Part shown: one piece after another, positions 9,677 to 31,490 of the stretch
How positions within the stretch are numbered: the stretch's first letter is position 1
Layout: every line of letters begins with the position of its first letter
Source: Bacillus sp. ISL-7
GTDB lineage: Bacteria; Bacillota; Bacilli; Bacillales_B; DSM-18226
Direction: 5' to 3'
Assembly (NCBI RefSeq): GCF_018613065.1
Contig: NZ_JAGGQW010000034.1
Location: 248,001-312,000, forward strand
DNA length: 64,000 bases
Program-made: the position numbers and the translations under genes
The notes under the pieces: model-generated
What the model was told of the DNA's origin: nothing
The model's database searches: none
What the model saw: the letters and a program-made list of their open reading frames with translations, nothing else

Positions 9677-9825
9677 CTACGTGCCCGAAACCGAGGGTAA
9701 ACATTGAATATGGTCACGTAGAGAGGTCCTACGTGCCCGAAACCGAGGGGAAACATTGAATATGGTCACGTAGAGAGGTCCTACGTGCCCGAAACCGAGG
9801 GGAAATAATGAATCGGGTAACGTAG
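9677..9825. repeat. 52-bp tandem repeat array A (3 units) between convergent mutL and mreBH
   Basis: Units start at 9677, 9729 and 9781, exactly 52 bp apart. Each unit begins CTACGTGCCC and carries the inverted counterpart GGTCACGTAG (GGTAACGTAG in unit 3), so a single-stranded copy could fold into a long hairpin. The first two units differ by one base in the arm-to-arm segment; the third is more diverged. Short frames across the array arise only from the repeats and are not called as genes. Confidence 0.9.
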
Positions 9826-9850
9826 ACATGCTATTCATGACGACCCAAAA

Positions 9851-9884
9851 GAAAAAAAGCTGCAGAAAAGGATTTTTCTGCAAC
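9851..9884 (-). terminator. Terminator of mreBH
   Basis: On the minus strand, GTTGCAGAAAA and TTTTCTGCAGC form an 11-bp stem with a 4-base loop, followed by a run of seven T. Confidence 0.85.
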
Positions 9885-9958
9885 TTTGATATTACTATTA
9901 ATTTGATTACTATTAATATGAGTGCAATCTCTGGAAATGATCTTGCCGCCCAAGTTGC

Positions 9959-10966
9959 TTATTTCACAGCTACGGGGAGCTTGCTCATATACATTAGGGC
10001 CTTTCCAGTTCCTATCGCTACCGATTCTAGAGGGTTTGGGGCAAGCTGGACAGGAACAACTATCTCTTCACTTAGCCATGCCTCCATCCCATTCAATAAT
10101 GCTCCACCGCCGGTCAGAATTACGCCCCTGTCGACGATGTCTCCACTGAGCTCTGCTGGGCAATCCTCTAGGGTTGCACGAATGGCTTCTAAAATATGCA
10201 ATAGTGCTTCCTTGATCGCCACACGAATTTCATAGGATGATAGTTTAATCGTTTTTGGCAGTCCAGTTAATAGGTCGCGACCCCGGACATCCATGAAACG
10301 TTCTTCATGGTCAATGAGAGCAAAACCAATTTCCATTTTGATGTTTTCTGCAGTTCTTTCACCAATTAGGATATTATATTCTTTCCGAACATGTTGAATA
10401 ATATCTTCATCGAGGCGGTCACCGCCAATTTTAATGGAATGGCATGCAACTACCCCGCCAAAGGAAATAATTGCTACCTCAGTATTGCCGCCGCCAATAT
10501 CCACTACCACATTGGCAACTGGTTCATCGACAGGTAATCCAGCACCAATTGCTGCTGCAACTGGTTCCTCAATTAAGCTGATTTTTTTTGCCCCAGCCTG
10601 TCTTACTGCATCTTGGATCGCTCTTCTTTCCACACTTGTGGAACCAGATGGAATACTAACAACGACATTTGGTTTACGCACAGCAAAACCAATCTTTTTG
10701 GATGCATCGCGCATAATGTGTTTTAGCAATTCAGTGGTTACATCATAATCTGCGATTACGCCATCCTTCATGGGGCGAATGGCGACGATTTTTTCAGGTG
10801 TCTTTCCTATCATTTCCTTTGCTTCTGTACCAACAGCTACAACATTTTTTGTCACTGTATCAATCGCCACAACAGAAGGTTCATTAATAACGATTCCTTT
10901 ATTTTTACTATAAACTAGTATATTTGCAGTTCCTAAATCAATACCTATATCAAAAGTAGATAACAT
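9959..10966 (-). CDS. mreBH: Actin-like cell-shape protein MreBH
   Basis: The 335-residue actin-fold protein has the MreB nucleotide-binding motifs: phosphate 1 [13 protein letters not shown] (here [10 protein letters not shown], residues 6-15), phosphate 2 [13 protein letters not shown], and adenosine-site [13 protein letters not shown]. Length and wording ([22 protein letters not shown]) match B. subtilis MreBH better than MreB or Mbl. It polymerises under the membrane and guides wall synthesis and LytE-type autolysins. The start has a GGTGAAGG ribosome site. In B. subtilis mreBH is elsewhere on the chromosome, so the position between mutL and miaA is a local rearrangement. Confidence 0.9.
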
Positions 10967-11216
10967 ATTCCTTCACCTAATTTCCCTATTTTTCATTCAA
11001 AATAAGCTACGAGTTAGTCTACCATAAATTTGGGGGTGGAAAGCCTTTTGTAAATGAACCGTTATCCTTTTGTAAATTTACAAGAAAATTATCCCTATTT
11101 AGGAATAAAAGTGGATGAAATAAATTTCATGTCCAATTAACGGCATAGAAATGAACTTTTATGTATATACTAGTTTGATGTTCTACTGCTTTTAAAAATT
11201 ATGTTACGATAAAGGG

Positions 11217-11246
11217 GTGAAAGTGGAATCATAAACCTGCTTTCAC
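11217..11246. promoter_or_regulatory. Short inverted repeat in the miaA leader
   Basis: GTGAAAG and CTTTCAC face each other with a 16-base loop just upstream of miaA. Nothing T-rich follows, so it is not a terminator. It could be an RNA structure or chance. Confidence 0.25.
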
Positions 11247-11266
11247 TGAAAATGGGATAAGGCAGT

Positions 11267-12232
11267 GTGAAAATATTGGATTCAAAACAAAAATTATTAG
11301 TGATCATCGGACCAACCGCCGTCGGAAAAACAAAGTTAAGTATCGAAATGGCTAAACGCTATAATGGTGAAATTATCAGCGGAGATTCTATGCAAATCTA
11401 TCGTGGCATGGATATTGGGACGGCAAAAATCAAAAAGGATGAAATGGAAGGTATTCCTCACTATCTGATAGATATTAAAGAGCCATTTGAAAATTTTTCC
11501 GTTGCTGAATTTCAACTCCTTGTTCGGGCTAAAATAGGTGAGATTGCTAAAAAGGGAAAGCTGCCCATTATTGTCGGTGGAACAGGGTTGTATATACAGT
11601 CCGTCATTTATGATTATCAATTTTCTGATGTACCAGGCGATGAGTCCTATCGTCTTAAGCTAGAGGAAAGAGTCAAGAAAATAGGGAATGAGGCACTTTA
11701 TAAAGAATTGTTGGAGGTGGATCCAGGTAGTGCTTCACAAATCCATCCAAATAATGTAAGAAGAGTCATTCGCGCACTTGAAATCTTCCATCTTACAGGT
11801 AAGACGATGCAAGAATTCCAAAGCACACAACAACCAGATCTTTTGTACAATACAGCAATAGTTGGTTTATCGATGGAACGCGAGAAACTTTATGAGCGCA
11901 TTAATTATCGAGTGGATTTAATGATGGAGGAAGGGCTTATCGAGGAAGTAAAAGGTTTGTATCAAAGGGGTTTGCGCGATTGTCAATCGATCCAAGCAAT
12001 TGGCTACAAAGAAATGTATGCCTATTTAGAAGGTAGAGTACCTTTAGAAGAGGCTATAGAGAATTTAAAACAAAATTCAAGAAGATACGCAAAAAGGCAA
12101 TTAACTTGGTTTCGGAACAAAATGGAGGTATCATGGTTTGACATGACCAGTGTGGAGGACACCTCAAAAAAAATAACGGAAATTTCACGTTGTGTTGAAG
12201 GAAAGCTTAAAGTAAAATCGAATACATATTAG
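11267..12232 (+). CDS. miaA: tRNA dimethylallyltransferase MiaA
   Basis: MiaA transfers a dimethylallyl group to N6 of A37 in tRNAs that read UNN codons. The 321-residue product has the P-loop GPTAVGKT (about residues 15-22), the [15 protein letters not shown] motif and GGTGLYIQS, all diagnostic of the family. The start is GTG at 11267 after a GATAAGG site; the pairing is modest but upstream ATGs are out of frame. hfq follows 26 bases later, as in B. subtilis, and is probably co-transcribed. Confidence 0.96.
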
Positions 12233-12258
12233 TAGAGATAAAAGAGGAGGAAATACAA

Positions 12259-12489
12259 ATGAAAACAACAATCAATATTCAGGACCAATTTTTAAACCAG
12301 TGCCGCAAAGATAACATACATGTTACCGTCTTTTTACTTAACGGTTTTCAATTAAGAGGTCAAATTAAGGGCTTTGATAATTTTACAGTTCTTTTTGAAT
12401 CAGAAGGAAAGCAACAATTAGTATATAAGCATGCTATTTCAACTTTTGCACCGCAAAGAAACGTGCAGCTTGAACTGGATAACCAATAA
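12259..12489 (+). CDS. hfq: RNA chaperone Hfq
   Basis: The 76-residue protein is an Sm-fold RNA-binding hexamer subunit, close to the usual Gram-positive length (73-76). Sm1 ([19 protein letters not shown]) and Sm2 (LVYKHAIST) motifs are intact. It has a strong AGAGGAGG ribosome site and follows miaA. A terminator follows directly. Confidence 0.97.
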
Positions 12490-12501
12490 GTCATAGTTAG
12501 G

Positions 12502-12524
12502 AGCCCATTTATTGGGCTTTTTTA
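12502..12524 (+). terminator. Terminator of miaA-hfq
   Basis: AGCCCA TTTAT TGGGCT stem-loop followed by a T-rich tract. Confidence 0.85.
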
Positions 12525-12686
12525 TTTATTATAAAAAACTTTTTTAATGAAATTCAGGGAGTTTGAATACATATAAAATGAAGGATTATGCTTTCCTTTG
12601 TGCAAATAATCAGTTCAGAATGTAAATTCTGAGTGGCCATAAAAACTCATCATATAAACTGTTGGTAAAAATGAGAGGTGAAAGCT

Positions 12687-13634
12687 TTGGACCAACCCAT
12701 CAGAATGAAAAGTAACGGCCAAATAAGAGTAGTTCTCAATTCACAAATAGGGAAAACGATGACAAAAGAGTTACCTGACTTTCAGGTGGTTCCAAAGGAC
12801 ATTCCACCTGAGCATTCGGCTCTAAAGGAAATTGAAGAGGAGTTAGGGGCTCTTGTTGGTATGGAAGAAATGAAAAAGATGATAAAGGAAATTTATGCAT
12901 GGATTTACGTGAATAAAAAACGTGAGGAAATGGGTTTAAAAGCAAGAAAACAAGCCCTCCATATGATGTTTAAAGGAAATCCTGGAACAGGTAAAACGAC
13001 AGTCGCTAGATTAATAGGTAAGTTATTTCAAAAAATGAGCGTTTTAACAAAAGGACACTTAATTGAGGCGGAACGTGCGGACCTCGTGGGGGAGTATATT
13101 GGTCATACAGCACAGAAGACAAGGGATTTAATCAAGAAGGCCCAAGGGGGGATTTTGTTCATCGATGAGGCTTACTCATTGGGGCGCGGCGGTGAGAAGG
13201 ATTTCGGCAAAGAAGCAATCGATACATTGGTTAAGCATATGGAAGATAAGCAGCATGAGTTTATTCTTATCCTTGCTGGATACTCCCGTGAAATGGAGTA
13301 TTTCTTGACCCTTAATCCTGGGCTCCATTCACGCTTTCCATTAGTTATTGATTTTCCTGACTACAATATAAATCAACTAATGGAAATTTCGGCGAGAATG
13401 TTAATCGAAAGAGAATACACGTTTAGCCATGAGGCGGAAAAAAAGTTAAAAGAACATTTAATATGGGTTAAAGCGGTATTAAGTCCAAATAGTTTTTCAA
13501 ATGGAAGGTATGTACGAAATATCATTGAAAAATCGATCCGCGCCCAGGCCATGAGGCTGCTCATGTTAAATAGTTATGACAGGCATGAATTAATGACAAT
13601 TAGAAGTAATGATCTTGTGTTTGAAGAAGATTAG
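12687..13634 (+). CDS. spoVK: Stage V sporulation protein K (AAA+ ATPase)
   Basis: This 315-residue AAA+ protein of the CbxX/CfqX type has Walker A GNPGTGKT, Walker B GGILFIDEAY and an arginine-finger region LHSRFPLVIDFPDY, and closely resembles B. subtilis SpoVK. It is needed for spore maturation. TTG at 12687 is preferred since GAGAGGTG lies 6-8 bases before it; an alternative GTG at 12678 overlaps that site. Expression should be mother-cell specific, but I could not assign a sporulation-sigma promoter with confidence. Confidence 0.93.
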   Translation: MDQPIRMKSNGQIRVVLNSQIGKTMTKELPDFQVVPKDIPPEHSALKEIEEELGALVGMEEMKKMIKEIYAWIYVNKKREEMGLKARKQALHMMFKGNPGTGKTTVARLIGKLFQKMSVLTKGHLIEAERADLVGEYIGHTAQKTRDLIKKAQGGILFIDEAYSLGRGGEKDFGKEAIDTLVKHMEDKQHEFILILAGYSREMEYFLTLNPGLHSRFPLVIDFPDYNINQLMEISARMLIEREYTFSHEAEKKLKEHLIWVKAVLSPNSFSNGRYVRNIIEKSIRAQAMRLLMLNSYDRHELMTIRSNDLVFEED

Positions 13635-13642
13635 AGACAAAA

Positions 13643-13672
13643 AAACGGCAGATTCTAAGCAATCTGCCGTTT
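13643..13672. terminator. Bidirectional terminator between spoVK and the TRIC channel gene
   Basis: A 12-bp perfect stem (AAACGGCAGATT / AATCTGCCGTTT) with a 6-base loop. A and T runs on both sides allow action for both convergent genes. Confidence 0.9.
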
Positions 13673-13688
13673 CTATTTGGATTAGTTA

Positions 13689-14294
13689 TTAATTGGCCTC
13701 AAATTTACGTATCGGCAGCTTCCAATCAAAGGTATAGGAGAGGACGCGTAAAACTGTCACAAGGAAAAAGAGAGAATACAATTCCCAAGAATGCGTCACG
13801 ATCTTAAGTCCGATAAATAAGCCTGTCAATATCGCCCATATTGCATAGATTTCCGATCGTAAGACGATTGGTTTTCTTCCTGCCAATAAATCACGAATAA
13901 TCCCGCCGCCGATTCCGGTTAGCACCGCTGCAACAATAACTGCACTAAGCGGGTGATTCATTTTAACGGCGTAAAGAGCACCTTGGATGGCAAAGGCTGA
14001 AAGGCCAATCGCATCAAATAAGTTTCCCCATTTTTGCCAATGTTTTAAAAGGTTGCTTGGAAATAAAAACACAGCAGTTATGGATAATAAGGCAATTTGA
14101 AAAAATAACCCTTGTTCCCAAAGTGCTGATACAGGTACACCGATTAATAGGTTTCGAATCGCCCCGCCGCCAAAAGCGGTGACAATACCTAAAATGTATA
14201 CGCCAAAAATATCATATTCCTCTTCCATCGCAACAATGGCCCCACTAACGGCGAAGGCGATTGTTCCAATCATACTTAAAACTTCCCATGTCAT
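13689..14294 (-). CDS. TRIC-type cation channel family protein (YvgT-like)
   Basis: The 201-residue integral membrane protein consists of two tandem TRIC (former UPF0126) repeats. Each has a glycine-rich motif, GGGAIRNLL in the first half and GIGGGIIRDLL in the second, with about seven membrane segments. Bacterial TRIC proteins form homotrimeric monovalent-cation channels. It is convergent with spoVK and divergent from hflX. B. subtilis has a homologue, YvgT, elsewhere, so this is a local insertion relative to that genome. Confidence 0.88.
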   Translation of the reverse strand: MTWEVLSMIGTIAFAVSGAIVAMEEEYDIFGVYILGIVTAFGGGAIRNLLIGVPVSALWEQGLFFQIALLSITAVFLFPSNLLKHWQKWGNLFDAIGLSAFAIQGALYAVKMNHPLSAVIVAAVLTGIGGGIIRDLLAGRKPIVLRSEIYAIWAILTGLFIGLKIVTHSWELYSLFFLVTVLRVLSYTFDWKLPIRKFEAN

Positions 14295-14487
14295 CTATCC
14301 GAATTCTCCTTGAAATCTTTATTTTATTTAACTATATGAAAATAGTAATAATGATATTAGAAAACAGTAAGATTATATCAAGATATGGGGAAATTACAAT
14401 AAGTTTTTTCTAATGTTGGGCAAATTAGAGTATACAACCTTTTTTTGTTATGATGGAGATAGAAGATTACGGAAGGAACGATGCCTT

Positions 14488-15747
14488 ATGGAACAAAAAG
14501 ACACGAAAGAGAAGGCGATCCTCGTTGGCTGTCAAACCAATGGGGATACGGATTTGCGCTTTCATTATTCAATGGAAGAGTTAGGAGCACTAACAGAAAC
14601 CGCTCAGGGTGAAGTATTGATGTCGGTCGTTCAAAAAAGGGACCGGCGCCACCCAGCTACCTATATAGGTAAAGGGAAAGTGGAGGAACTTAATGTCCTG
14701 GTGGATGAACTGGAGGCAGATATAGTTATTTTTAATGACGAGCTATCACCCAGTCAAAAAAGAAATCTCTCTACGGAAATAAATGCCCGTATCATCGACA
14801 GAACCCAGCTCATCTTAGACATTTTTGCACAAAGGGCTCGCTCCAAAGAAGGGAAATTACAGGTTGAACTTGCCCAATTGCAATACATGCTTCCTCGTCT
14901 TGCGGGTCAGGGGACTGCATTATCCCGTTTGGGGGCTGGGATAGGAACAAGGGGTCCTGGTGAAACAAAGTTAGAATCAGACCGCCGGCATATCCGCCGC
15001 AGAATCGATGAAATTAAAACCCAACTTTCCGTTATCGTTCAGCACAGGGATCGATACAGAGAAAGAAGAAAGAAAAATAAAACCTTTCAGGTCGCGATTG
15101 TCGGTTATACCAATGCCGGTAAATCCAGTCTTTTCAATCGTTTATCTGAAGCAGAATCGTACGAGGAAAATCAATTGTTTGCAACCCTAGATCCAATGAC
15201 ACGAAAATTGATTTTACCAAGTGGTTTCCTAGCCTTGATTACCGATACGGTTGGGTTTATACAAGATTTACCGACAACACTAATTGCTGCATTTCGATCG
15301 ACGCTTGAGGAAGTCAAGGAAGCTGATTTGCTTCTTCATGTGGTCGATATGTCCAACCCAGATTATTTCCATCACGAAAAAACTGTTAAAAAGCTGCTTG
15401 AAGACTTGGAAGTTAAAGATATCCCGCAAATAACAGTATATAATAAGAAAGATATTCAGCATTCAGATTTTGTCCCAACCGCAGATACACCGACCGCATT
15501 TATTAGTGCATTTGATAAAGAGGACCGTCAAGCCTTGAAGCAGCAAATGGAGAAGGTAGTTATGGAAATGATGGATTCTTACGAAGTTCAGATTCCGTCC
15601 ACAGAAGGAAAGCTGCTTTCTTTATTAAAAAATGAGACAATATTAAGAGAGCTTGTGTTTGATGAAGAAGATCAATTCTATCGATGCAAAGGATATACAC
15701 TTCAGGATCATCAAATAACAGGACAATTACAGAAATTCACAATATAG
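14488..15747 (+). CDS. hflX: Ribosome-associated GTPase HflX (YnbA)
   Basis: The 419-residue protein has the N-terminal HflX domain ([11 protein letters not shown]; glycine-rich [15 protein letters not shown] near residues 150-170) and a C-terminal GTPase with G1 [10 protein letters not shown]3 DTVGF and G4 YNKKD. HflX splits stalled or hibernating 70S ribosomes. ATG 14488 is preferred (GGAAGGA upstream, length 419 against 420 in B. subtilis YnbA). ynbB follows 14 bases downstream. Confidence 0.95.
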
Positions 15748-15761
15748 ATAGGGGTCACAAC

Positions 15762-17033
15762 ATGTTTCAACAGTTAAAAAATGGGGAAAAGCTTCAGCCG
15801 TTGGTAGAGGAAGTTGAACAACAAATCGCTAAAGTACATAAAGAAATAGACAATAAAATCGAATCAAATCAATTTCGGGTATTAAAAAGCTTTCAAAACA
15901 AAAGAGTGAGTGATTCACATTTTAATCCGTCGACAGGGTATGGCTATGACGATCATGGCAGGGATACACTAGAAATGGTCTATGCAGACGTTTTTGGGGG
16001 AGAAGCAGGACTTGTTCGTCCGCAAATAATCTCTGGCACACATGCCATTTCCATTGCCTTATTTGGCGTTCTTCGACCTGGGGATGAACTTCTATATATA
16101 ACGGGCAAACCCTATGATACGCTTGAAGAAATTGTTGGACTTCGTGGGAACGGGGTTGGCTCATTAAAGGAATTTGGAATTTCCTATGATAGTGTAGCTC
16201 TGACGAATCAAGGTGGAATTGATTGGGAGGCTGTCTCAAAGAAAATAAAACCGAATACAAAAATGATTGGCATTCAGCGTTCCAAGGGCTATGCCACAAG
16301 ACCATCTTTTACGATTGCAGAAATTGCAGAAATGATCACGTTTGTCAAAGAAATTAAACAGGATGTGGTCGTATTTGTAGATAATTGCTATGGGGAATTT
16401 GTTGAGGAGACCGAGCCTTGTCATGTCGGTGCGGACTTAATCGCAGGGTCACTAATCAAAAATCCAGGCGGAGGGATTGTGAAGACTGGCGGCTATATTG
16501 TTGGTAAAAAACAGTGGGTGGAGGCATGTTCGTATCGAATGACTTCACCAGGGATAGGAGCCGAAGCAGGAGCGTCCCTCTATAGTCTTCAAGAAATGTA
16601 TCAAGGTTTTTTTCTTGCCCCCCATGTGGTTGGCCAGGCATTAAAAGGGGCCGTTTTCACAGCAGCAATGTTGGAGAAATTAGGCATGAATTCTTCTCCG
16701 AAATGGAATGCTAAAAGGACGGACTTAATTCAGTCTGTCCAGTTTGATGACCGAGATAAAATGATTGCTTTTTGTCAGGCCATTCAATTCGCATCACCGA
16801 TTAATTCTTATGTCACACCCCATGCCAGTTATATGCCAGGGTATGAGGACGATGTAATTATGGCAGCAGGTACTTTTATTCAGGGGGCGAGCATTGAACT
16901 CACAGCAGATGGACCGATTAGACCACCATATGTTGCCTATGTACAAGGTGGTTTAACCTATGCACACGTAAAGATGGCTGTTTGTCTGGCCATAGACCAC
17001 TTAACGGATAAAGGATTAATCGAATTGTTTTAG
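15762..17033 (+). CDS. ynbB: PLP-dependent cystathionine-lyase-like protein YnbB (aluminium resistance family)
   Basis: The 423-residue protein belongs to the COG4100 / Met_gamma_lyase family of fold-type I PLP enzymes. The likely PLP lysine lies in AGSLIKNPGGG, and the cofactor aspartate in VVFVDNCYGEF. True substrate unknown; the family carries an old aluminium-resistance label. ATG 15762 follows TAGGGG. The hflX-ynbB-glnR-glnA order is as in B. subtilis. Confidence 0.92.
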   Translation: MFQQLKNGEKLQPLVEEVEQQIAKVHKEIDNKIESNQFRVLKSFQNKRVSDSHFNPSTGYGYDDHGRDTLEMVYADVFGGEAGLVRPQIISGTHAISIALFGVLRPGDELLYITGKPYDTLEEIVGLRGNGVGSLKEFGISYDSVALTNQGGIDWEAVSKKIKPNTKMIGIQRSKGYATRPSFTIAEIAEMITFVKEIKQDVVVFVDNCYGEFVEETEPCHVGADLIAGSLIKNPGGGIVKTGGYIVGKKQWVEACSYRMTSPGIGAEAGASLYSLQEMYQGFFLAPHVVGQALKGAVFTAAMLEKLGMNSSPKWNAKRTDLIQSVQFDDRDKMIAFCQAIQFASPINSYVTPHASYMPGYEDDVIMAAGTFIQGASIELTADGPIRPPYVAYVQGGLTYAHVKMAVCLAIDHLTDKGLIELF

Positions 17034-17071
17034 GAGAACAGCAAAGTGTCCAATTATTTTAAAAATTTTAA

Positions 17072-17088
17072 TGTAAGAAAACCTAACA
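17072..17088. promoter_or_regulatory. GlnR/TnrA operator (site 1) upstream of glnRA
   Basis: TGTAAGAAAACCTAACA fits the GlnR/TnrA consensus TGTNA-N7-TNACA at every fixed position. It sits just upstream of the -35 box. A second, one-mismatch site (TGACA-N7-TAACA, 17095-17111) overlaps the -35 region, giving the two-operator arrangement known from B. subtilis glnRA. Confidence 0.88.
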
Positions 17089-17093
17089 TATCA

Positions 17094-17122
17094 TTGACAA
17101 CTTTTCTAACACAAAATATAAT
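17094..17122 (+). promoter_or_regulatory. SigA promoter of glnRA
   Basis: A perfect -35 TTGACA (17094-17099) and a perfect -10 TATAAT (17117-17122) are separated by 17 bp. The second GlnR site covers the -35 box, which explains repression under nitrogen excess. Confidence 0.9.
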
Positions 17123-17157
17123 AGTATTATAATCAACCCGAGGGGAGGAGGAATTAG

Positions 17158-17559: not shown

Positions 17560-17597
17560 TGTGGAAGTTTTCTTTTTAAAAAATAGGAGGTAAGGAA

Positions 17598-18932: not shown

Positions 18933-18943
18933 TATTATCTAAG

Positions 18944-18969
18944 CCCTGGCGCCTGGCGTCAGGGTTTTT
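18944..18969 (+). terminator. Terminator of glnRA
   Basis: CCCTG..GCC-T-GGC..CAGGG stem with small internal mismatches, followed by TTTTT. Confidence 0.8.
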
Positions 18970-19286
18970 CTATGTCGCGCTTCTTTTCTTAGATTCTCTC
19001 AGTGAAAAATGCCATCCCATTGGCTACCCGGTTTTTCCATTAAACAATTACGGTAGCTAATAAGCCTGATTGTCGACCCAAATTGCTCCTTCTCAACGAC
19101 TTCGAACGTCAATAACTTCAATGGCTCTTTTTCCAATTAGGCATCCTAGATCATTCTAAATAAAATTAATAGGAATAGAATAGAAAAAGAGGTGCTTGAT
19201 GTTCTTTAAAAATTCACAATTTTTACGGTTTACTTAATCCTAAATAATATATGCTTAAGTTGTAAACATTTGGGAGGTGCTTTAAA
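18970..19286. other. Intergenic stretch after glnA
   Basis: No gene, tRNA or clear RNA structure was seen beyond the ribosome site of the following small ORF. A 63-codon frame overlapping the glnA end and terminator is not credible. Confidence 0.4.
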
Positions 19287-19638: not shown

Positions 19639-20107
19639 ATTCTTTTGGAACGTCACGTAGGAATTCTTCCGGAAAGGTAGAGTAGTCCGTCTCTACGTGC
19701 CCCACCTCGTAGGAATTCTTCCGGAAAGGTCACGTAGGCTGTCTCTACGTGCCCCACCTCGTAGGAATTCTTCCGGAAAGGTCACGTAGGCTGTCTCTAC
19801 GTGCCCCACCTCGTAGAAGTTCTTCCGGAAAGGTCACGTAGGCTGTCTCTACGTGCCCCACCTCGTAGGAATTCATCTAGAAAGGTCACGTAGATCGCCT
19901 CTACGTGCTCCACCTCGTAGAAGTTCTTCCGGAAAGGTCACGTAGTCCGCCTCTACGTGCTCCACCTCGTAGGAATTCTTGCGGAAAGGTCACGTAGTCC
20001 GTCTCTATGTGCCCCACCTCGTAGGAATTCATCTAGAAAGGTCACGTAGTCCGCCTCTACGTGCCCCACCTCGTAGGAATTCTTCTACAACGGTCACGTA
20101 GACTCAC
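19639..20107. repeat. 52-bp tandem repeat array B (8 clear units plus a degenerate first unit)
   Basis: Units start at 19691, 19743, 19795, 19847, 19899, 19951, 20003 and 20055, all exactly 52 bp apart, with a degenerate unit before them. Each reads CTCTACGTGCCCCACCTCG, then TAGGAATTCTTCCGGAA, then AGGTCACGTAG plus a variable 5-6 base linker. CTACGTG can pair with the terminal CACGTAG, and CTACG with the internal CGTAG, giving two competing hairpins. Outer arms match those of array A; the middle differs. The array lies between a plus-strand gene and lexA on the minus strand. Confidence 0.93.
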
Positions 20108-20196
20108 TCTATCCCGGATTCTGTAATTCCTTCAGCTTGAGGTTGATTAGCCACAACAAAAAAAGAGTCGGCACGTATATGCCAACTCTCTTAAAC

Positions 20197-20820
20197 TTAA
20201 TGAATATGTCGGTAAACCCCAATGACTTTACCTAAAATCGAAACATTCCTTAAGATAATAGGGTCCATTGTAGAATTTTCCGGCTGCAGGCGTATGTAAT
20301 CTTTTTCCTTGAAAAATCTTTTACAGGTGGCTTCATCTTCCTCGGTCATTGCTACAACAATATCCCCGTTATTAGCGGTTGGCTGCTGTTTTACAATTAC
20401 ATAATCCCCGTCTAGGATCCCAGCTTCTATCATACTCTCACCCATGATTTCTAACATGAAAACTTGTTCATCTGCAGGTGCAAGACTTTCTGGAAGCGGA
20501 AAATACTCTTCCACATTTTCAATCGCTGTAATTGGGAGTCCTGCCGTTACTTTCCCAACCACTGGAACATTGACAACTGTATTTCTTGGTATATGTGCAG
20601 CAACATCTGCTTCTAATATTTCAATTGCTCTTGGTTTTGTGGGATCCCGTCTAATAAGTCCTTTGCTTTCCAATCTTGCTAGATGTCCGTGAACAGTAGA
20701 ACTGGATGCGAGTCCAACCGCTTCTCCAATTTCCCTTACTGAAGGGGGATATCCTTTACTCTTAACCTCACTTTTAATGAAGTCTAAGATATCTTGCTGC
20801 CTCTTTGATATTTTAGCCAT
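20197..20820 (-). CDS. lexA: SOS repressor LexA
   Basis: The 207-residue protein has an N-terminal winged helix ([13 protein letters not shown], about residues 25-37) and a C-terminal S24 self-cleavage domain. The scissile Ala93-Gly94 lies in KVTAGLP; the catalytic Ser129 is in MGESM and Lys167 in ATCKRFF. ATG 20820 is chosen (AGGTGG upstream, MAKISKRQ like B. subtilis). It is divergent from yneA, with SOS boxes between them, so it is autoregulated. Confidence 0.98.
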
Positions 20821-20881
20821 GATAAAATCCACCTCGCCTGGTTAATGTTGTCTTTATTATAACATGTTCGTATTTTTTATA

Positions 20882-21961: not shown

Positions 21962-22038
21962 ACCTTTTGCCTTGTCATTAGGTTTTTTTTTTAGTAAAAT
22001 CAGGTGTCATGTAAATAGTTTGAAAGGAAGGTCTTGGA

Positions 22039-22269: not shown

Positions 22270-22446
22270 AAGTTCAGGAATACATTTTTTGTATTCCTAT
22301 TTACATATACTGACTATTTTTGTGTAAAAATAAAAAAATAGTGAATTTTGTTTCTTATTATTATGCTATTTGTTGAATAAAAAACGGTAGCGATATAAAA
22401 TTGAAAATGTATTTAGTAACCTTGTGATTAGGAAAGGATGTAATTC

Positions 22447-24453: not shown

Positions 24454-24469
24454 AATAATGAGATTTTAG

Positions 24470-24500
24470 GGAGAGCGGAAATCATCCGTTCTCCTTTTTT
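24470..24500 (+). terminator. Terminator of tkt
   Basis: GGAGAGCGGA / TCCGTTCTCC stem (one G-U) with a 5-base loop, followed by six T. Confidence 0.9.
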
Positions 24501-24606
24501 GATGGTATAAAGGGTCAAATTTCAACAATATTATGAACAAAGTTAATTTTTGAAGGAAAATTCAACAAATCTACCGAATTTATAGAAGAATAGTTTAGAT
24601 TCCTGC

Positions 24607-24621
24607 TAATCGACAAAAATA
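24607..24621. promoter_or_regulatory. Possible Spo0A box upstream of sirA
   Basis: On the minus strand TTTTTGTCGATT resembles the Spo0A box TTTGTCGAA with one mismatch in the core. It lies about 90 bases before sirA, a gene activated by Spo0A in B. subtilis. One imperfect 7-mer is weak evidence. Confidence 0.35.
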
Positions 24622-24706
24622 GTGAAAGTTTTTGCCGCCGTAAGACATATGTTTCTTTAATCTTTTTTTATAATAGTAAAAAGGGTAATCAACGAAGGAG
24701 AGAACA

Positions 24707-25150
24707 GTGGTGAGAAAATATCAGCTATATTTAATAGAAGATGAATTTGCGACCCATTACTTCGGAAGAGAACGATTGTTTTTTCGGCTTTTTCAGGAAC
24801 ATCGAAAAGCAAACGGCGAACTTAAATTTATTACACAAAAACAAATTTCCTATATAACAAAAAAGGTTGAGGTTCTAAAGATCCATCAACTTATCCAAAA
24901 GCAGCTTGGAAAAATCAAGGGATTTAAAGCTGAGCATGGTGCATATTCAATTGAATTAAGCGGAAAACTAAGTACGGCAAAGTTAGAGGTTTTTCAAGAC
25001 TTAATTACAATCGAGGCACAAGGCAGCTATGAAGCTGAGACGGCTTTTTTTGAAGTTCTAAGAAAATGTGAGACTTCCTTTTTGGCACTTGACCTTGAAC
25101 ATCAGCGATATGGTTGGTTAAAGCCGATAAAGGAAAGAAAATTTATCTAA
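24707..25150 (+). CDS. sirA: Sporulation inhibitor of replication SirA (YneE)
   Basis: The 147-residue product begins with a YLIEDEFATHYFGRE motif closely matching B. subtilis SirA, which binds domain I of DnaA to block re-replication after sporulation starts. Start is one of two adjacent GTG codons (24707 or 24710) after AAGGAG. Order tkt-sirA-yneF is as in B. subtilis. Confidence 0.92.
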   Translation: MVRKYQLYLIEDEFATHYFGRERLFFRLFQEHRKANGELKFITQKQISYITKKVEVLKIHQLIQKQLGKIKGFKAEHGAYSIELSGKLSTAKLEVFQDLITIEAQGSYEAETAFFEVLRKCETSFLALDLEHQRYGWLKPIKERKFI

Positions 25151-25221
25151 TAGCAGATATTGTCTAATCGTGTTTTATTTAGTACACTGTATGGTAGACA
25201 ACATGAAGGAGGAAGTTGAAT

Positions 25222-25437
25222 ATGGTTTATTACATTCTAGTTGGTATACTAGCATTAGCAGCTGGTGTAGCACTAGGATTTTTCATTGCTCGTAAATATA
25301 TGATGAGCTACTTAAAGAAAAATCCGCCAATCAATGAACAAATGTTAAAAATGATGATGATGCAAATGGGACAAAAACCATCACAAAAGAAGATCAACCA
25401 AATGATGGCTGCCATGAACAAACAACAATCAAAATAA
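25222..25437 (+). CDS. yneF: YneF family small membrane protein (UPF0154)
   Basis: The 71-residue protein has one N-terminal membrane segment (about residues 2-22), then a polar region rich in Met and Lys ([22 protein letters not shown]), hallmark of UPF0154. Function unknown. ATG 25222 has AAGGAGG 8 bases upstream; the in-frame TTG at 25216 is too close to it. Confidence 0.93.
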
Positions 25438-25445
25438 AACGGACT

Positions 25446-25472
25446 AGCACTCATATAGATGGGTGCTTTTTT
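25446..25472 (+). terminator. Terminator of yneF
   Basis: AGCACTCAT / ATGGGTGCT, 9-bp stem (G-U pairs included) with a 4-base loop, then a T run. Confidence 0.85.
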
Positions 25473-25619
25473 CGTGCGGATAAAAATATTCTAAATCTTT
25501 ATTATTTTATAAAAATTTGGTAAAATTAAACCTCAGTCCGTTGGATTATTTTCCCGAATAACTTATCAAACGTATTCAATTTTTGGCAGATCGATTACTC
25601 GTGATTTGGGGGCGGTTTA

Positions 25620-27371
25620 ATGAAAGTATTTTTAGAATTAGGCTGGTATTTTAAACAGGAGAAAAAAGCATATATATCCGGGATTTTCCTCCTAATGCTT
25701 GTAGCAATATTGCAACTGGTGCCGCCTAAGATCATAGGAATCATAGCTGACCAAGTTAAGAATGGGACGATGACAACGGGAATTCTCTTACAGTGGATGG
25801 CCGTATTAGTTATTGTTGCCCTTGCAATGTATTTCCTTAGGTACTACTGGAGAATTATGATTTTTGGATCATCAGTTAAGTTAAGTAAGTTGCTTCGAAA
25901 TCGGCTGTATCATCATTTTACAAATATGTCGCCATCATTTTACCAAAAACGTCGAATAGGGGATTTAATGGCACATGCCACCAACGATCTGTCAGCCATT
26001 CAACAAACAGCGGGCGTAGGCGTGCTAACCTTCGTTGATTCTCTTTCAACTGGCGGGTTTGTTATCTGTGCAATGGCATTTACGATTAGCTGGAAATTAA
26101 CATTAATCTGTTTAATTCCGATGCCCTTTATGGTAATCCTTACAAGCTGGTTTGGGACAATGCTCCATCGAACCTTTTATCAGGCACAGGAAGCATTTTC
26201 GTCATTAAATGATAAAACTCAGGAAAGTATTACTGGGATTAAAGTGATTAAGACGTTTGGCCAGGAAAAGGAAGATATCGAGGATTTTCGGAAGCAATCA
26301 GAAGATGTCGTCCAAAAAAATATCACCGTCGCAAAAATTGATTCTCTCTTCGATCCGACGATTTCGATCATCGTAGGTATTTCCTTCTTCTTATCGATTG
26401 TGTTTGGTGCAAAATACGTGCTTAATGGGGAACTAACAATCGGGCAATTACTCTCGTTTACTACATATTTAGGTTTACTTATCTGGCCGATGCTTGCATT
26501 TGGCTGGTTGTTTAACATTGTTGAGCGAGGCAGTGCTTCCTATGACCGAGTTTCCATGCTCCTTCAAGAAAAAGAAGATATTACCGATAAGGAAGGGGCC
26601 ATAAACGTGGTGCCCGCAGGTGATATTGAATACAAACTTTCTAGCTTTACCTATCCTGGGGAATCCACAACGGTTTTAAAAGATATATATTTTTCGATAT
26701 ATACCGGCGAGACGGTAGGCATCGTTGGTAAAACCGGTGCTGGTAAAACCACTCTTTTAAAACTGCTCATTCGTGAGTTTGATAGTTACCAAGGTGAGAT
26801 TAGATTTGGAGGTAAATCTCTGCAGGAATACAAGCTTGAAAAATTACGCGAGGCCATTGGTTATGTACCGCAAGATCATTTCTTGTTTTCAGCCTCTGTT
26901 AGTGAAAATATCGCCTTTACAAACCACGGGGCATCAATAGAGGAAGTCGAGAATGCCGCTAAGCTTGCCAATATCCATACTGATATCCTTCAATTTACTG
27001 AAGGGTATCAAACGGTTGTTGGAGAGCGTGGGGTATCCTTATCGGGCGGGCAGAAGCAAAGGATTTCGATTGCCCGGGCTATTTTGATGAAGCCAGAAGT
27101 GTTAGTACTCGATGATTCCTTATCTGCAGTAGATGCAAAAACAGAAGAAGCCATTCTTTCAGCATTAAAACAGAATAGGGAAGGAAAAACAACCATCATC
27201 ACTTCACACCGATTAAGTGCCATTCAACATGCAAATCTCATTCTGGTTCTTGAGGATGGAAAGATTGTGGAAAGAGGTAGACATGAAGTATTGATGGAAT
27301 CGGGTGGATGGTATAAGGAAATGTATTTACGCCAGCAGCTAGAAGAGTTGGTTGAGCATGGAGGGCGTTAA
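25620..27371 (+). CDS. yheI: Heterodimeric ABC exporter subunit, YheI/BmrC type
   Basis: The 583-residue half-transporter has six N-terminal membrane helices (about residues 15-300) and a C-terminal ATPase. Walker A is GKTGAGKTT, signature LSGGQKQ, and Walker B VLVLDDSLSAVD. The residue after the Walker B Asp is Asp, not the catalytic Glu, as in the degenerate-site subunit of heterodimers such as BmrC/BmrD. It resembles B. subtilis YheI along its whole length. The partner gene starts one base after its stop. Multidrug export is the known role of the family; the substrate here is unknown. Confidence 0.88.
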   Translation: MKVFLELGWYFKQEKKAYISGIFLLMLVAILQLVPPKIIGIIADQVKNGTMTTGILLQWMAVLVIVALAMYFLRYYWRIMIFGSSVKLSKLLRNRLYHHFTNMSPSFYQKRRIGDLMAHATNDLSAIQQTAGVGVLTFVDSLSTGGFVICAMAFTISWKLTLICLIPMPFMVILTSWFGTMLHRTFYQAQEAFSSLNDKTQESITGIKVIKTFGQEKEDIEDFRKQSEDVVQKNITVAKIDSLFDPTISIIVGISFFLSIVFGAKYVLNGELTIGQLLSFTTYLGLLIWPMLAFGWLFNIVERGSASYDRVSMLLQEKEDITDKEGAINVVPAGDIEYKLSSFTYPGESTTVLKDIYFSIYTGETVGIVGKTGAGKTTLLKLLIREFDSYQGEIRFGGKSLQEYKLEKLREAIGYVPQDHFLFSASVSENIAFTNHGASIEEVENAAKLANIHTDILQFTEGYQTVVGERGVSLSGGQKQRISIARAILMKPEVLVLDDSLSAVDAKTEEAILSALKQNREGKTTIITSHRLSAIQHANLILVLEDGKIVERGRHEVLMESGGWYKEMYLRQQLEELVEHGGR

Positions 27372-27372
27372 G

Positions 27373-29166
27373 ATGGACGAAAAAATTCAGCTTACAGAAC
27401 GTGAACAAAGAAATATTTTATTCCGTTTGCTTTCCTATACGAAGCCACATAAAAAAACGATTGTCATAGCATTTATCTTCTTACTATTAACAACCATCGG
27501 CGATATTGTTTTACCGATTATCGTAAAAATATTTATCGATGATTATTTAACTCCTGGTAAGCTAGAGTTTCAGCCACTTCTGATCCTAGGTTCCACATAC
27601 ATGTCAATCCAAATCATTAAAGCGATTGTCATGTTTTTTCAATTGGTTAAATTCCAGGAACTGGCTTTGAGGATTATCCAACAGCTGCGCATTGATGTTT
27701 TTTCTAAAGTACAGTCGCTCGGGCTAAAGTATTTTGATAAGACCCCAGCAGGAAGTATCGTTTCAAGGGTGACCAATGATACGGAAGCCATTAAAGACAT
27801 GTTTGTTACCGTTATTGCAACGTTTATCCAAGGTGGATTTTTATTACTAGGTATTTTTATTGCGATGTTTATTCTGGACATCAGACTTGGCTTATTATGT
27901 GTCGTGATTCTTCCGTTATTATTGTTTGTCATGAACCTATACAGAAAATTAAGTTCACGATTTTACCTTGATATGCGCGAACGGCTGAGCCAATTGAATG
28001 CCAAGCTCAGTGAATCATTATCTGGAATGGGAATAATTCAAGTGTTTCGGCAGGAAAAAAGACTACGAGAAGAATTCGGAGCTATTAATGAACAACACTA
28101 TCAGGCAGGAATGAAAAATATCAAAATAGATGGCCTCCTGTTAAGACCAGCGATTGATTTAATCTATATTTTGGGCTTAATCATTGTATTAAGTTATTTT
28201 GGAATAACGTCTTTTAACCATGTGGTGGAAATCGGCGTGTTATATGCCTTCATAAATTATTTGGATCGTTTTTTCGAACCGGTTAATCAGATGATGATGA
28301 GGCTTTCCTTGTACCAACAAGCGATTGTCGCTGGCTCGCGTGTTTTTAAACTGTTGGATGAGGAAGAATTAGCACCAATACAAAAAGAAGAGCGGACCAA
28401 TTCCATTGAAAAAGGAATGATTGAGTTTAAGAATTTAAGTTTTTCCTACGATGGAAGACGGGATGTGCTAAAATCTATTTCTTTCATGGTAAATCCTGGT
28501 GAAACAGTCGCACTGGTTGGCCATACCGGAAGTGGAAAAAGCTCGATTATCAATATGTTATTGCGTTTTTATGAGTATGAACGGGGGGACATTTTGATTG
28601 ATGGTCAATCGATTCGGAACTTCACAAAGACAGAACTCAGGGAGAAAATGGGCTTAGTATTACAAGATCCATTCTTGTTCTACGGAACGGTGAAGGATAA
28701 TATTCGCCTTCATTCGAATGACATGACGGATGAACAAGTTGAGGAAGCAGCAAAGTTTGTCCAAGCCCACACCTTTATTGAAAAGTTGGAGGATGGCTTT
28801 GAACATAAGGTTGTCGAGCGTGGTACCACATTTTCAAGCGGTCAAAGGCAACTACTCGCTTTTGCCCGAACGATCGCCGCTAATCCCAAAATATTGGTTC
28901 TCGACGAAGCGACCGCCAACATTGATACAGAAACAGAAGAAGCCATTCAAACCGCACTTGCCAAAATGCGAAAAGGGCGAACGACTATAGCCATTGCGCA
29001 TCGCCTGTCAACCATTCAGGATGCTGATTTAATTCTAGTTATGCATCAGGGGGAAATTGTTGAAAGGGGAACCCATCAACAACTGCTTGCCCAGGGTGGC
29101 TTGTACCATAAAATGTTCCTTTTGCAAAACGGAGCGGTAGAACGTCTTGAGGATGTTGTGAATTAA
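27373..29166 (+). CDS. yheH: Heterodimeric ABC exporter subunit, YheH/BmrD-like
   Basis: The 597-residue half-transporter is the partner of the preceding gene. It has Walker A GHTGSGKSS, Walker B ILVLDEATANID with the catalytic Glu, and a degenerate signature FSSGQRQ. The two half-transporters therefore complement each other at the composite ATP sites, the usual heterodimer pattern. It is shorter than B. subtilis YheH because an extracytoplasmic-type insertion near the N-terminus is missing. ATG 27373 follows GGAGGGC. In B. subtilis no ABC pair lies between yneF and ynzD, so these two genes are inserted here. Confidence 0.87.
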   Translation: MDEKIQLTEREQRNILFRLLSYTKPHKKTIVIAFIFLLLTTIGDIVLPIIVKIFIDDYLTPGKLEFQPLLILGSTYMSIQIIKAIVMFFQLVKFQELALRIIQQLRIDVFSKVQSLGLKYFDKTPAGSIVSRVTNDTEAIKDMFVTVIATFIQGGFLLLGIFIAMFILDIRLGLLCVVILPLLLFVMNLYRKLSSRFYLDMRERLSQLNAKLSESLSGMGIIQVFRQEKRLREEFGAINEQHYQAGMKNIKIDGLLLRPAIDLIYILGLIIVLSYFGITSFNHVVEIGVLYAFINYLDRFFEPVNQMMMRLSLYQQAIVAGSRVFKLLDEEELAPIQKEERTNSIEKGMIEFKNLSFSYDGRRDVLKSISFMVNPGETVALVGHTGSGKSSIINMLLRFYEYERGDILIDGQSIRNFTKTELREKMGLVLQDPFLFYGTVKDNIRLHSNDMTDEQVEEAAKFVQAHTFIEKLEDGFEHKVVERGTTFSSGQRQLLAFARTIAANPKILVLDEATANIDTETEEAIQTALAKMRKGRTTIAIAHRLSTIQDADLILVMHQGEIVERGTHQQLLAQGGLYHKMFLLQNGAVERLEDVVN

Positions 29167-29169
29167 TGG

Positions 29170-29200
29170 AAAAAAGCCTGGCGATTTGCCAGGCTTTTTT
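29170..29200. terminator. Bidirectional terminator between yheH and ynzD
   Basis: AAAAAAGCCTGGC / GCCAGGCTTTTTT with a short loop. A perfect inverted repeat with A and T runs serves both convergent genes. Confidence 0.92.
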
Positions 29201-29255
29201 CATTATATAGGTCTATTGTCTATTTCTAATGATGACGACATACAACGACTTTCTT

Positions 29256-29432
29256 TTAACTAGCTGATGAAGGCATCTTGTTTATATATACTCTATGATA
29301 TTCATTTAAGAGATGATCAAGTTCCTGGCTGTAGCGAATTGCAACGGAGGATGTCAAGCCGTTGGTGATGGCGACTTGAATTAATTCAGCTCGTTTTTTT
29401 TCAATTAATGTAACTAAATCATTTTTTGTCAC
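29256..29432 (-). CDS. ynzD: Spo0E-like aspartyl-phosphate phosphatase YnzD
   Basis: The 58-residue helical protein contains the Spo0E-family motif SQELDHLLNEY (about residues 34-44), used to dephosphorylate Spo0A-P. GTG 29432 is chosen because GGAAAGGA lies 8 bases before it and the length then matches B. subtilis YnzD (57 aa). Its position beside ccdA is conserved. It should delay sporulation. Confidence 0.88.
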   Translation of the reverse strand: MTKNDLVTLIEKKRAELIQVAITNGLTSSVAIRYSQELDHLLNEYHRVYINKMPSSAS

Positions 29433-29708
29433 GGCCGATGTCCTTTCCGGAGTAACTCCTAAATTATGGTGCAAATAGACTACTAATATATCAAAATGAC
29501 ATTGATTTTTCTAGTATAACCTATGATGTAAATTTTTTCAAAGACATTTGTAAATAAATATCCAACGAATTTATGCATATATTTTATGGAAGAGGCATTT
29601 CAGTGGAACAAAAAAAGGCGGCGACACAAAATATTCAAGTTAACCATTATCATTTATATCAAACATTTGTTAGAATATAAACGTATCGACTATAGTGGGA
29701 GTGTTATT

Positions 29709-30416
29709 ATGTCAGATGTAAATATATTTTTAGCCTTAGGGGCAGGATTTTTAAGCTTTATTTCTCCTTGTTGTTTACCACTTTATCCTGCATTTCTCTC
29801 GTACATCACAGGTATGTCTGTTGGGGAGCTAAAAAGTGAAAACGCCATGCTTCAAAAGCGGAGTCTACTCCACACATTATTTTTCCTTTTAGGCTTTTCG
29901 ATTATTTTTATTGCGATTGGATTTGGAACTTCGTTTCTAGGAAGCTTTTTCTTACAGTATAAAGACCTTATTCGTCAACTAGGCGGAATTTTTATTGTTT
30001 TCTTTGGTTTAGTGATCGTTGGGATTTTAAATCCGAAGTTTATGATGAAGGATCGCCGAATTGAATTTAAAAATCGTCCTTCAGGTTATTTTGGTTCTGT
30101 TTTAATTGGGATGGCATTTGCCGCGGGTTGGACGCCTTGTACAGGTCCGATTCTTTCGTTTGTTATTTCCCTAGCAGCCACAAATCCAGGTTCAGGTATG
30201 ATGTATATGATTGCCTATTGTCTAGGCTTTGCCATACCATTCTTTATTCTTTCGTTCTTCCTTGGGCGCATGACTTGGATTAAGAAGAACAGCGGTAAAA
30301 TTGTAAAAATTGGCGGTTACATAATGATTGTAATGGGGGTTGTCCTATTCTTTGACTGGATGACTAAAATCATTACTATTTTTTCAGGAATGTTTGGTGG
30401 CTTTACGGGGTTCTAA
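29709..30416 (+). CDS. ccdA: Cytochrome c biogenesis thiol-disulfide transporter CcdA
   Basis: The 235-residue protein has six membrane segments and the two conserved cysteine motifs [13 protein letters not shown] (about residues 19-31) and [11 protein letters not shown] (about 139-149). It carries electrons from cytoplasmic thioredoxin to extracytoplasmic ResA/StoA for cytochrome c and spore cortex maturation. ATG 29709 gives exactly the B. subtilis length; the in-frame start at 29586 adds an unrelated tail. Confidence 0.95.
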
Positions 30417-30467
30417 TGTAAACACGGAAATGATAAATATATAAAAATATTATATTTTTTGAAAGGG

Positions 30468-30488
30468 AACTTCCTTAGGAGGTTTTTT
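30468..30488 (+). terminator. Terminator of ccdA
   Basis: AACTTCC TTA GGAGGTT stem-loop followed by TTTT and another T tract. Confidence 0.75.
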
Positions 30489-30613
30489 CCTTTTTTTGTA
30501 TCGATCACCTGTGTGTTAGAATTGGGAACATTTTATCATGAGTTAATTTTTTTCAAATGAATTTATTTGCGATATAATGGGTTAGTAAATAAATTAGATA
30601 AGGAATGAATCTA

Positions 30614-31093
30614 ATGAACATAGTTCTTGCTTCTTCAATTGGAGCGGTATTTATGGGCACCCTGGCCTTGGTAGTCCGGATGAAAGCCGCAAAGAAACCC
30701 ACGAATGCTCGTAAAATAATTCTACCTCCATTTTTCATGTCGAGTGGGGCTTTAATGTATATGGATCCGCAATTTAGACTAACTGGAGCAGAAATGATCG
30801 AGGCAGCGATTGTGGGGATGCTATTCTCTATCTTACTCATTAAAACTTCTAAGTTTGAAATCCGCGATAACGATATTTATCTAAAGCGATCTAAGGCATT
30901 TTTCTTTATTTTGATTGGTCTATTAGTTGTTCGCCTTGTTATGAAGTCCGTTCTAAGTGCAACCATTGATTTTGGAGAATTAAGCGGCATGTTCTTCTTC
31001 CTTGCCTATTGTATGATTGTCCCATGGCGGATTGCGATGTATATGGACTACAAAAAGTTGTTTAGACGACTTCATGGTGATAAGCAATTATAA
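30614..31093 (+). CDS. ccdC: CcdC-like membrane protein (YneJ)
   Basis: The 159-residue protein has four to five membrane segments and the CcdC-family sequence KKPTNARKIILPPFFMSSG (about residues 30-48). It sits in the ccdA neighbourhood as yneJ does in B. subtilis; the response-regulator-like yneI found between them there is absent. Its role in cytochrome c maturation was reported as dispensable. ATG 30614 is 10 bases after AAGGAATG. Confidence 0.9.
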   Translation: MNIVLASSIGAVFMGTLALVVRMKAAKKPTNARKIILPPFFMSSGALMYMDPQFRLTGAEMIEAAIVGMLFSILLIKTSKFEIRDNDIYLKRSKAFFFILIGLLVVRLVMKSVLSATIDFGELSGMFFFLAYCMIVPWRIAMYMDYKKLFRRLHGDKQL

Positions 31094-31104
31094 TTAAGTG
31101 AGAG

Positions 31105-31133
31105 ACTGGTCCTTTATTGGGATCAGTTTTTCT
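31105..31133 (+). terminator. Terminator of ccdC
   Basis: ACTGGTCC TTTATT GGGATCAGT stem (one bulge), followed by a T-rich tract. Confidence 0.8.
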
Positions 31134-31230
31134 TTTTAGGATTTGTTGGATAATGTTATTGAATTGTGGAGGGAATAGTTTGATAGGGACCGGGGTATTG
31201 GCTATAGAATTCAGGGGAAATTAATGAAAA

Positions 31231-31490
31231 GTGTCTTCAATAAGGGCTATTGACGACAAAAGGCAGGAAAAAACAGTGAAAAGTGTCGCCAATAAGGCCT
31301 ATTGGCGACAAAATTTAAGGAAAAACAATGAGATGTGTCTCCAATAAAAGTTATTGGCGACAGAAATCAGAAAAAAGATGTGGAAAGAGTCGCCAATAAG
31401 GGCTGTTGACGACAAAAGTTAGGAAAAAACTATGAAAAATGTATCCAATGGAATCCGTTGATGACAAAATAAAAAACCATCTATTAGCTA
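31231..31490. repeat. 52-bp tandem repeat array C (5 units) between convergent ccdC and yneK
   Basis: Units start at 31231, 31283, 31335, 31387 and 31439, exactly 52 bp apart. The unit core is a palindrome; in unit 2 GTCGCCAATA and TATTGGCGAC flank AGGCC, a 10-bp perfect stem. The rest is A-rich spacer. The last unit is diverged. Sequence is unrelated to arrays A and B, but the period and the setting between convergent genes are the same. Confidence 0.92.

Follow-up and report, generated by a model that had tools for sequence, protein, structure and literature searches.

Do tandem repeats that hold one period while their sequence changes form a single kind of element, and what would such an element do? 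The question is raised by a stretch of 64,000 nucleotides from Bacillus sp. ISL-7 (contig NZ_JAGGQW010000034.1; the whole stretch is called the window here), which carries three arrays, A, B and C, that repeat every 52 bp. By its sequence the host is a Neobacillus or a near relative, the LexA of the window being 98% identical to that of Bacillus sp. AFS073361 and 94% to that of Neobacillus niacini. We find that the arrays belong to a published class of 52-nt satellites of Bacillaceae, that this class looks, from its aligned consensuses, like one family of modules and not a set of unrelated sequences, and that its orientation with replication is a stronger positional signal than its placement between convergent genes. 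Tandem Repeats Finder, run on the window, returned nine rows, among which no period above 22 lay outside the arrays; it gave period 52 for all three, so the period reported in an earlier note on this DNA is real. The arrays and their dyads are:

9677..9826, + strand: array A, period 52, 2.9 copies, 93% matches, 0% indels
9712..9738, + strand: first of two 27-bp dyads of array A, dyad scan score 31.4
9764-9790: second 27-bp dyad of array A, dyad scan score 31.4
19656..20101, - strand: array B, period 52, 8.6 copies (about nine units), 90% matches, 0% indels
19728..19754, - strand: 27-bp dyad of array B, one of eight in 19676-20066 at a spacing of 52
31223..31449, + strand: array C, period 52, 4.4 copies (about five diverged units), 72% matches, 2% indels
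31284..31310, + strand: perfect copy of the 27-bp dyad of array C from the dyad scan, an 11-bp hairpin on folding

Array A consists of three 45-bp elements, CTACGTGCCC-25 nt-GGT(C/A)ACGTAG, with 7-bp spacers between them, and array B has the same arms. The arm mismatch of B points the same way as that of A, despite the opposite purine strand, and the minus strand gives the better score in seven of the eight B dyads. In array C the dyad is TGTCGCCAATA-N5-TATTGGCGACA, with an A-rich linker on the + (leading) strand, and its starts at 31232, 31284, 31336 and 31388 are spaced by exactly 52. Inverted repeats had been noted in every array, and each indeed has its 27-bp dyads; folding as single-stranded DNA beats shuffled sequences, with z of -2.6 and -3.3 for the whole of A, -5.0 on both strands for a piece of B, and -6.8 and -7.2 for a piece of C. 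The earlier note was mistaken in calling C unrelated to A and B: its TGTC...GACA dyad has their 27-bp geometry and the conserved end positions, and C fits the same dyad-linker plan.

Subirana and Messeguer described repeats of 52 nt from roughly 30% of the Bacillus species in their study, where 1886 of 4029 repeats measured 51-53 nt; their length is constant and their sequence variable, a nucleoid protein or small RNAs were suggested, and B. subtilis, the B. cereus group and B. megaterium lack them (PMC8161180). With these repeats A, B and C share the period of 51-53, a non-coding location, many loci per genome, species-specific families, short common signals that often occur with their reverse, and a unit number that varies between strains. 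The hosts agree as well (Firmicutes, mainly Bacillus, with LexA here closest to Bacillus/Neobacillus), and several unit families coexist within single genomes, as in the published class. Against the published limit of four repeats, B (8.6) and C (4.4) lie above and A (2.9) below. Unit distances in 36 arrays are 52 in 174 of 187 cases and 51 in the other 13.

Wider sampling used 95 stretches of 20 kb from nine relatives (1.9 Mb in total), blind in that regularly spaced positions were picked without regard to content; they are not random draws, the p-values given below treat arrays as independent, and the relatives G001 and G020 are flagged as 13% contaminated. The intergenic periods found were 52 (28 repeats), 51 (2), 21 (14), 20 (7), 42 (4) and scattered others; periods 50, 53 and 54 were missing among the intergenic repeats of this 1.9 Mb. 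All but one of the 31 blind arrays of 50-54 bp are intergenic, and the remaining one (period 54) lies inside a gene. Since the intergenic periods of the relatives pile up at 51-52 and 20-21, the 52-bp period is not due to chance, and the idea of a class defined by its period is borne out, the class being already in print (PMC8161180). G033 alone among the nine genomes had no 52-bp array in its five blind stretches. The proposed scan of relatives for period 52 also brought up, in the nine sampled genomes, another intergenic class with fixed periods (20-21 and 42 bp), which is neither polar nor enriched in convergent gaps.

What holds the 52-bp units together? We reduced 62 arrays (from relatives, named loci and the window) to 51 consensuses less than 80% identical, of which 40 are exactly 52 long, and aligned them solely on the best symmetry centre, omitting the tested pair each time (leave-one-out). 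Because two centres are equivalent in a unit treated as a circle, plain span statistics were blurred, and leave-one-out profiles were used instead. In the 40 consensuses complementarity is 0.50-0.88 at the odd spans 7-27 and 0.09-0.38 beyond, against about 0.2 in shuffled sequences; 34 of the 40 have an odd-span centre. G at -12 occurs in 26 of the 28 best consensuses, as does C at +12. When 39 consensuses were oriented by the leading strand (a table that omits 11 others of different length or weak dyad), they were seen to share their ends, a central loop like GARRGGKTC and a linker rich in purines that contains A-tracts. The dyad can be written [GT]G T [CA] - 5 variable - ~GARRGGKTC - 5 complementary - [GT][AC]C[CA]; together with a purine-rich linker of 25 bp containing A-tracts it makes up the 52-bp module.

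The middle arm bases differ among families, yet complementarity is kept: at pairs 5-10, 28-31 of 34 units are paired, using several kinds of pair, where shuffling gives means of 10-17. The leave-one-out profile is the fairer test, because the units used for covariation had been selected for symmetry. In 27 of 32 arrays the linker varies more than the arms (p = 4e-7). Among 25 published consensuses from other species, 16 score at least 5.5, 11 of these with G-12 and C+12, and nine fall below. At the pair adjoining the symmetry centre (span 3), 3 of 33 are complementary, a lower share than the 0.26 of shuffled sequences.

For orientation, the leading strand was derived by taking dnaA as the origin and assuming the terminus to lie opposite; for the window we relied on G001, its nearest relative. 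Of the 30 intergenic blind arrays, 28 have the leading strand as their purine-rich strand (p = 1e-5; the exceptions are L238 and, weakly, L230), which is the strand bias along replichores that marks polar motifs; a rounded count gives 27 of 30, as the convergent array L234 is practically zero. The mean purine excess per 200 bp is +42, where 868 background windows average +5 and are positive in 56% of cases, and the rule applies in convergent (11/11), divergent (5/5) and co-directional gaps (12/14). In the 21/42-bp class the purine strand is leading in 14 of 27. The + strand is leading in the window, and its purines minus pyrimidines (R-Y) come to +36 in A and +77 in C, as the rule demands, but to -46 in B, whose modest purine excess is on the minus strand. 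A second, overlapping set took in targeted loci as well and lists 41 arrays; of the 30 with a linker bias of at least 5, 28 follow the fork. Two targeted arrays, L308 (at the terminus) and L312, adjoin lagging-strand genes, and there the purine strand follows the fork, not the gene. In 80 named lexA-region loci, where lexA is assumed to be lagging, 12 arrays were found, and every one of them has a pyrimidine excess on the strand of lexA, though two are nearly balanced; seven come from loci with the title Mesobacillus or Bacillus sp. (L026, L042, L044, L045), with LexA 82-87% identical. A scan for dyads alone says little on polarity, the dyad being nearly symmetric (108 of 155 array dyads lead at score 14).

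Arrays are also concentrated near the origin: the origin-proximal half holds 24 of the 30 blind arrays, fourfold the number in the terminus half for equal intergenic DNA (p = 7e-4). With regard to gap type, 11 of the 30 are convergent, 14 co-directional and five divergent, in intergenic DNA that is 14.4% convergent, 64.3% co-directional and 21.3% divergent. Convergent gaps are thus enriched (37% versus 14.4% of intergenic bp, p = 0.0021; by count of gaps of at least 100 bp, p = 0.0004), and divergent gaps show no depletion among these 30 arrays (p = 0.36). The enrichment weakens when the origin-proximal half is taken by itself (6 of 24 versus 12.9%, p = 0.08); in the terminus half five of six arrays are convergent. 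The earlier proposal that convergent position defines the class therefore holds as a preference and fails as a definition, and exclusive placement between convergent genes is ruled out by the 19 of 30 blind arrays found elsewhere.

All three window arrays do lie between convergent genes, as had been noted; their neighbours were checked by Pfam, which found no match for the 84-aa open reading frame (ORF) on the + strand left of B. The gene caller and the rule for terminators were both home-made. The neighbouring features are:

7675..9591, + strand: mutL, left of array A
9601..9625 (approximate), + strand: terminator-like hairpin and T run after mutL, before array A
9859..9884 (approximate), - strand: terminator-like hairpin after the mreB-like gene, beyond array A
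9959..10966, - strand: mreB/mreBH-like gene (Pfam MreB_Mbl), right of array A
20167..20186 (approximate), - strand: terminator-like hairpin after lexA, beyond array B
20197..20832, - strand: lexA, right of array B
30605..31093, + strand: ccdC (Pfam DUF1453/CcdC), left of array C
31106..31126 (approximate), + strand: terminator-like hairpin after ccdC, before array C
31477..31495 (approximate), - strand: terminator-like hairpin after the DUF2621 gene, beyond array C
31496..31921, - strand: DUF2621 gene (yneK in the earlier note), right of array C

By this rule terminator-like hairpins flank A, B and C on both sides, and those flanking C are conserved, by eye, in G001, G020 and G022. Taking the 11 blind and three window arrays in convergent gaps together, six have such hairpins on both sides (the window contributes three of the six), four on one side and four on neither.

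Are the same arrays found in the same gaps of relatives? Orthologous gaps carry different unit families. The mutL gap holds an array in 8 of 17 complete orthologous gaps, in six unit families, and the ccdC gap in 7 of 30, in five; these turnover counts cover the mutL and ccdC gaps, gap B having three complete orthologs. Between the same ccdC-gap hairpins the window and G001 carry one family and G020 and G022 another. The comparison of unit counts among relatives suggested earlier shows array A with three units in the window and G001 and a single unit in G022. Solitary dyads are scarce, with 20 intergenic hits outside arrays at a score of at least 16 and 17 in the whole reversed-sequence control; 10 of the 20 are on the leading strand, and such hits barely exceed noise. 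In the gap after glnA (window 18933-19286; L150-L152), G022 has no element, G020 has a nine-unit array of another family, and the window and G001 have a possible decayed dyad:

19052..19078, + strand: the possible decayed dyad, solitary and of the common plan, score 16.3, near noise

We propose that the 52-nt arrays are a fork-directed element that acts as DNA rather than RNA, and put the probability of this reading, mechanism included, at about 0.4. A fork-linked or chromosome-tracking protein would probably read the array directionally, in a role akin to that of the translocases, nucleases or structural maintenance of chromosomes (SMC) proteins named next. Elsewhere such roles are played by translocases that read FtsK orienting polar sequences (KOPS) and SpoIIIE recognition sequences (SRS), by nucleases that read Chi, and by SMC. 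Reading may be aided by extrusion of the dyad as a hairpin or cruciform and by a phased, curved linker, and arrays would survive best where transcripts do not cross. It is a more doubtful step to see in the arrays a new directional chromosome element, with five-turn modules along both replichores, concentrated toward the origin and read by a putative replisome-tracking protein. Binding by an architectural protein, as the earlier note suggested, is possible. The 52-nt repeats have stood on record as an enigma, with one length and seemingly no common sequence or function; with a plan of sequence and structure in common they can be searched for as a single family, and orientation along the fork favours a link to replication or chromosome movement over one to RNA.

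The evidence on the level of action and on helical phasing is as follows. With leading-strand orientation, mismatches at pairs 5-10 are G-T in 25 cases and A-C in 36, and promoter-like matches upstream in the leading sense are not in excess (6.9 versus 7.5 of 12); a role as RNA is disfavoured because there is neither a G-T excess nor a promoter signal. Rfam gave no match above the cut-off at A, B or C; array B had a chance-level hit to RcsR1 (22.8 bits, cut-off 60, E 2.8), and A and C had none. The power of linker A-tracts at 10.4 bp (52/5) exceeds that in shuffled and rotated controls, 0 of 300 of each reaching it. This fits the five helical turns of the earlier note without amounting to proof, since a period of 7.4 stands out nearly as strongly.

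Several points weigh against a fork-directed DNA element. Polarity is reversed in L238 and, weakly, L230 of the blind sample and in the targeted L309; array B is a further exception to the rule, and its copy in G001 (L003) has R-Y of -40 on +, which is leading there too. A leading-strand bias is seen in period classes outside 52 and 21/42 too (11 of 15, mean +14). In co-directional gaps replication and transcription are indistinguishable, because all 14 blind arrays there adjoin leading-strand genes. The published consensuses show no sharp drop in complementarity past span 27, with 0.35-0.71 at spans 7-27, 0.57 at 29 and 0.55 at 35. The turnover of families between sister species sits poorly with a single conserved reader, no protein partner was found, and the SRS octamer shows no strand bias in the arrays (2 versus 2). 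An RNA-like lean appears when mismatches are counted by linker orientation (G-U 103 versus A-C 70), although it is not repeated with leading-strand orientation, and 52-nt satellites of B. coagulans are transcribed according to published RNA-seq (PMC8625621).

How do the arrays compare with known systems? KOPS, SRS and Chi are strand-biased, purine-rich, leading-strand-oriented words of 5-8 bp spread through genes; the 52-bp arrays share the bias, the purines and the orientation, but are long intergenic arrays with dyads. The Chi word AGCGG occurs in the arrays 16 versus 3 times, with overlapping finder rows counted separately. A partly palindromic 27-bp repeat alternating with about 25 bp recalls CRISPR, from which the arrays differ in that the segment between dyads is repeated within arrays, not unique, and in their many loci per genome. 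The 20-21/42-nt repeats of the same genomes are likewise intergenic and of fixed period, but lack convergent enrichment and polarity. Repetitive extragenic palindromic (REP) sequences and bacterial interspersed mosaic elements (BIMEs) are short palindromic repeats outside genes that go with RAYT transposases. The 52-bp arrays resemble them as short palindromic intergenic repeats and differ in being tandem at a fixed period, with few solitary copies and no RAYT bond seen.

A Y1 transposase hit is present in 33 of 36 same-genus genomes, mostly of the longer RAYT-like kind (judged by ORF length and score); no 52-bp array was seen at 30 Y1 loci, and G020 and G022 have arrays and no Y1 hit. In the listed hairpins of 14 of these 30 loci the 27-bp plan was not seen by eye, by which weak dyads could be missed. 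As partner a RAYT/Y1 transposase is rejected: such hairpins as were seen near these genes are of another kind, and arrays are also found where the gene is absent. The other hairpin, GGGGACGGTTCTC...GAGAACCGTCCCC, was noticed near RAYT-like Y1 genes in 5 of the 14 loci examined, adjoining the gene in L296, L300 and L293 and within 1.5 kb of it in L288 and L290; hairpin and gene look like a separate REP-RAYT pair.

The main rival explanation, which we consider unlikely though the least so of those weighed here, is a selfish or passenger hairpin whose single strand is captured or copied from the lagging-strand template in a fixed orientation and which grows by slippage, so that orientation reflects mechanism and not function. 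IS200/IS605 elements are known to be captured as a folded single strand from that template. The fork orientation, the dyad with covarying arms, the presence in one gap of a single unit in G022 and of three in the window, and the switching of families between sister species all suit such a hairpin; the scarcity of solitary dyads does not, nor do the Y1 results, with RAYT-like genes near a different hairpin, arrays lacking at Y1 loci and arrays present where no Y1 hit is. It is less probable still that the arrays are a neutral by-product in which slippage fills insertion-tolerant DNA past terminators and template switching, which can yield paired changes without selection, keeps quasi-palindromes symmetric. 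The enrichment of convergent gaps and the terminator-like hairpins on both or one side of ten of 14 convergent arrays would be expected from this, whereas one period and one consensus across several genera, a purine polarity far over background, arms more conserved than the linker, and the lack of both polarity and convergent enrichment in the 21/42-bp class of these genomes would not.

Two further explanations appeal to transcripts, and both seem to us quite improbable. The arrays might be polar brakes, the anti-fork strand giving a hairpin and then a pyrimidine-rich linker that stops antisense transcripts in a Rho-like or weakly intrinsic manner; fork polarity, convergent enrichment and the T/C-rich linker on the lagging-sense strand agree with this, but the 5 of 30 arrays in divergent gaps have no obvious use for a terminator, and all three window arrays already have terminator-like hairpins on both sides. 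Or they might, in line with what the published authors suggest, be RNA elements, strings of hairpins with purine linkers serving as small RNAs, sponges or 3'-end protectors. The B. coagulans transcripts and the linker-oriented G-U count speak for RNA, and in one set of 13 co-directional arrays 12 have their purines on the gene strand; in an overlapping set, also of 13, though, 11 agree with the fork and 9 with the gene. The leading-strand-oriented mismatches and the promoter counts, the terminator-like hairpins that precede the window arrays and the equal polarity of divergent arrays also argue against RNA.

As to what is new, the main text of PMC8161180 never uses the words intergenic, convergent, palindrom- or hairpin, nor does it report on the type of gene gap, on polarity with replication, on turnover in orthologous gaps or on a sequence plan common to the repeats. 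Among the papers that literature searches listed, no title or abstract opening reports replication polarity or convergent placement for such repeats, a survey in which subscription papers may have been missed. The common unit plan and the fork direction of the 52-nt class were not found in print.

The window also encodes a selenocysteine tRNA (tRNA-SeC) at 32245-32341 on the + strand, found by ARAGORN (anticodon tca) and by Rfam (RF01852, 63.3 bits). Reading TGA through in the window ORFs identified no selenoprotein; taken as a residue, it slightly extends two ORFs on the + strand, at 39041-39958 and 44402-45640.

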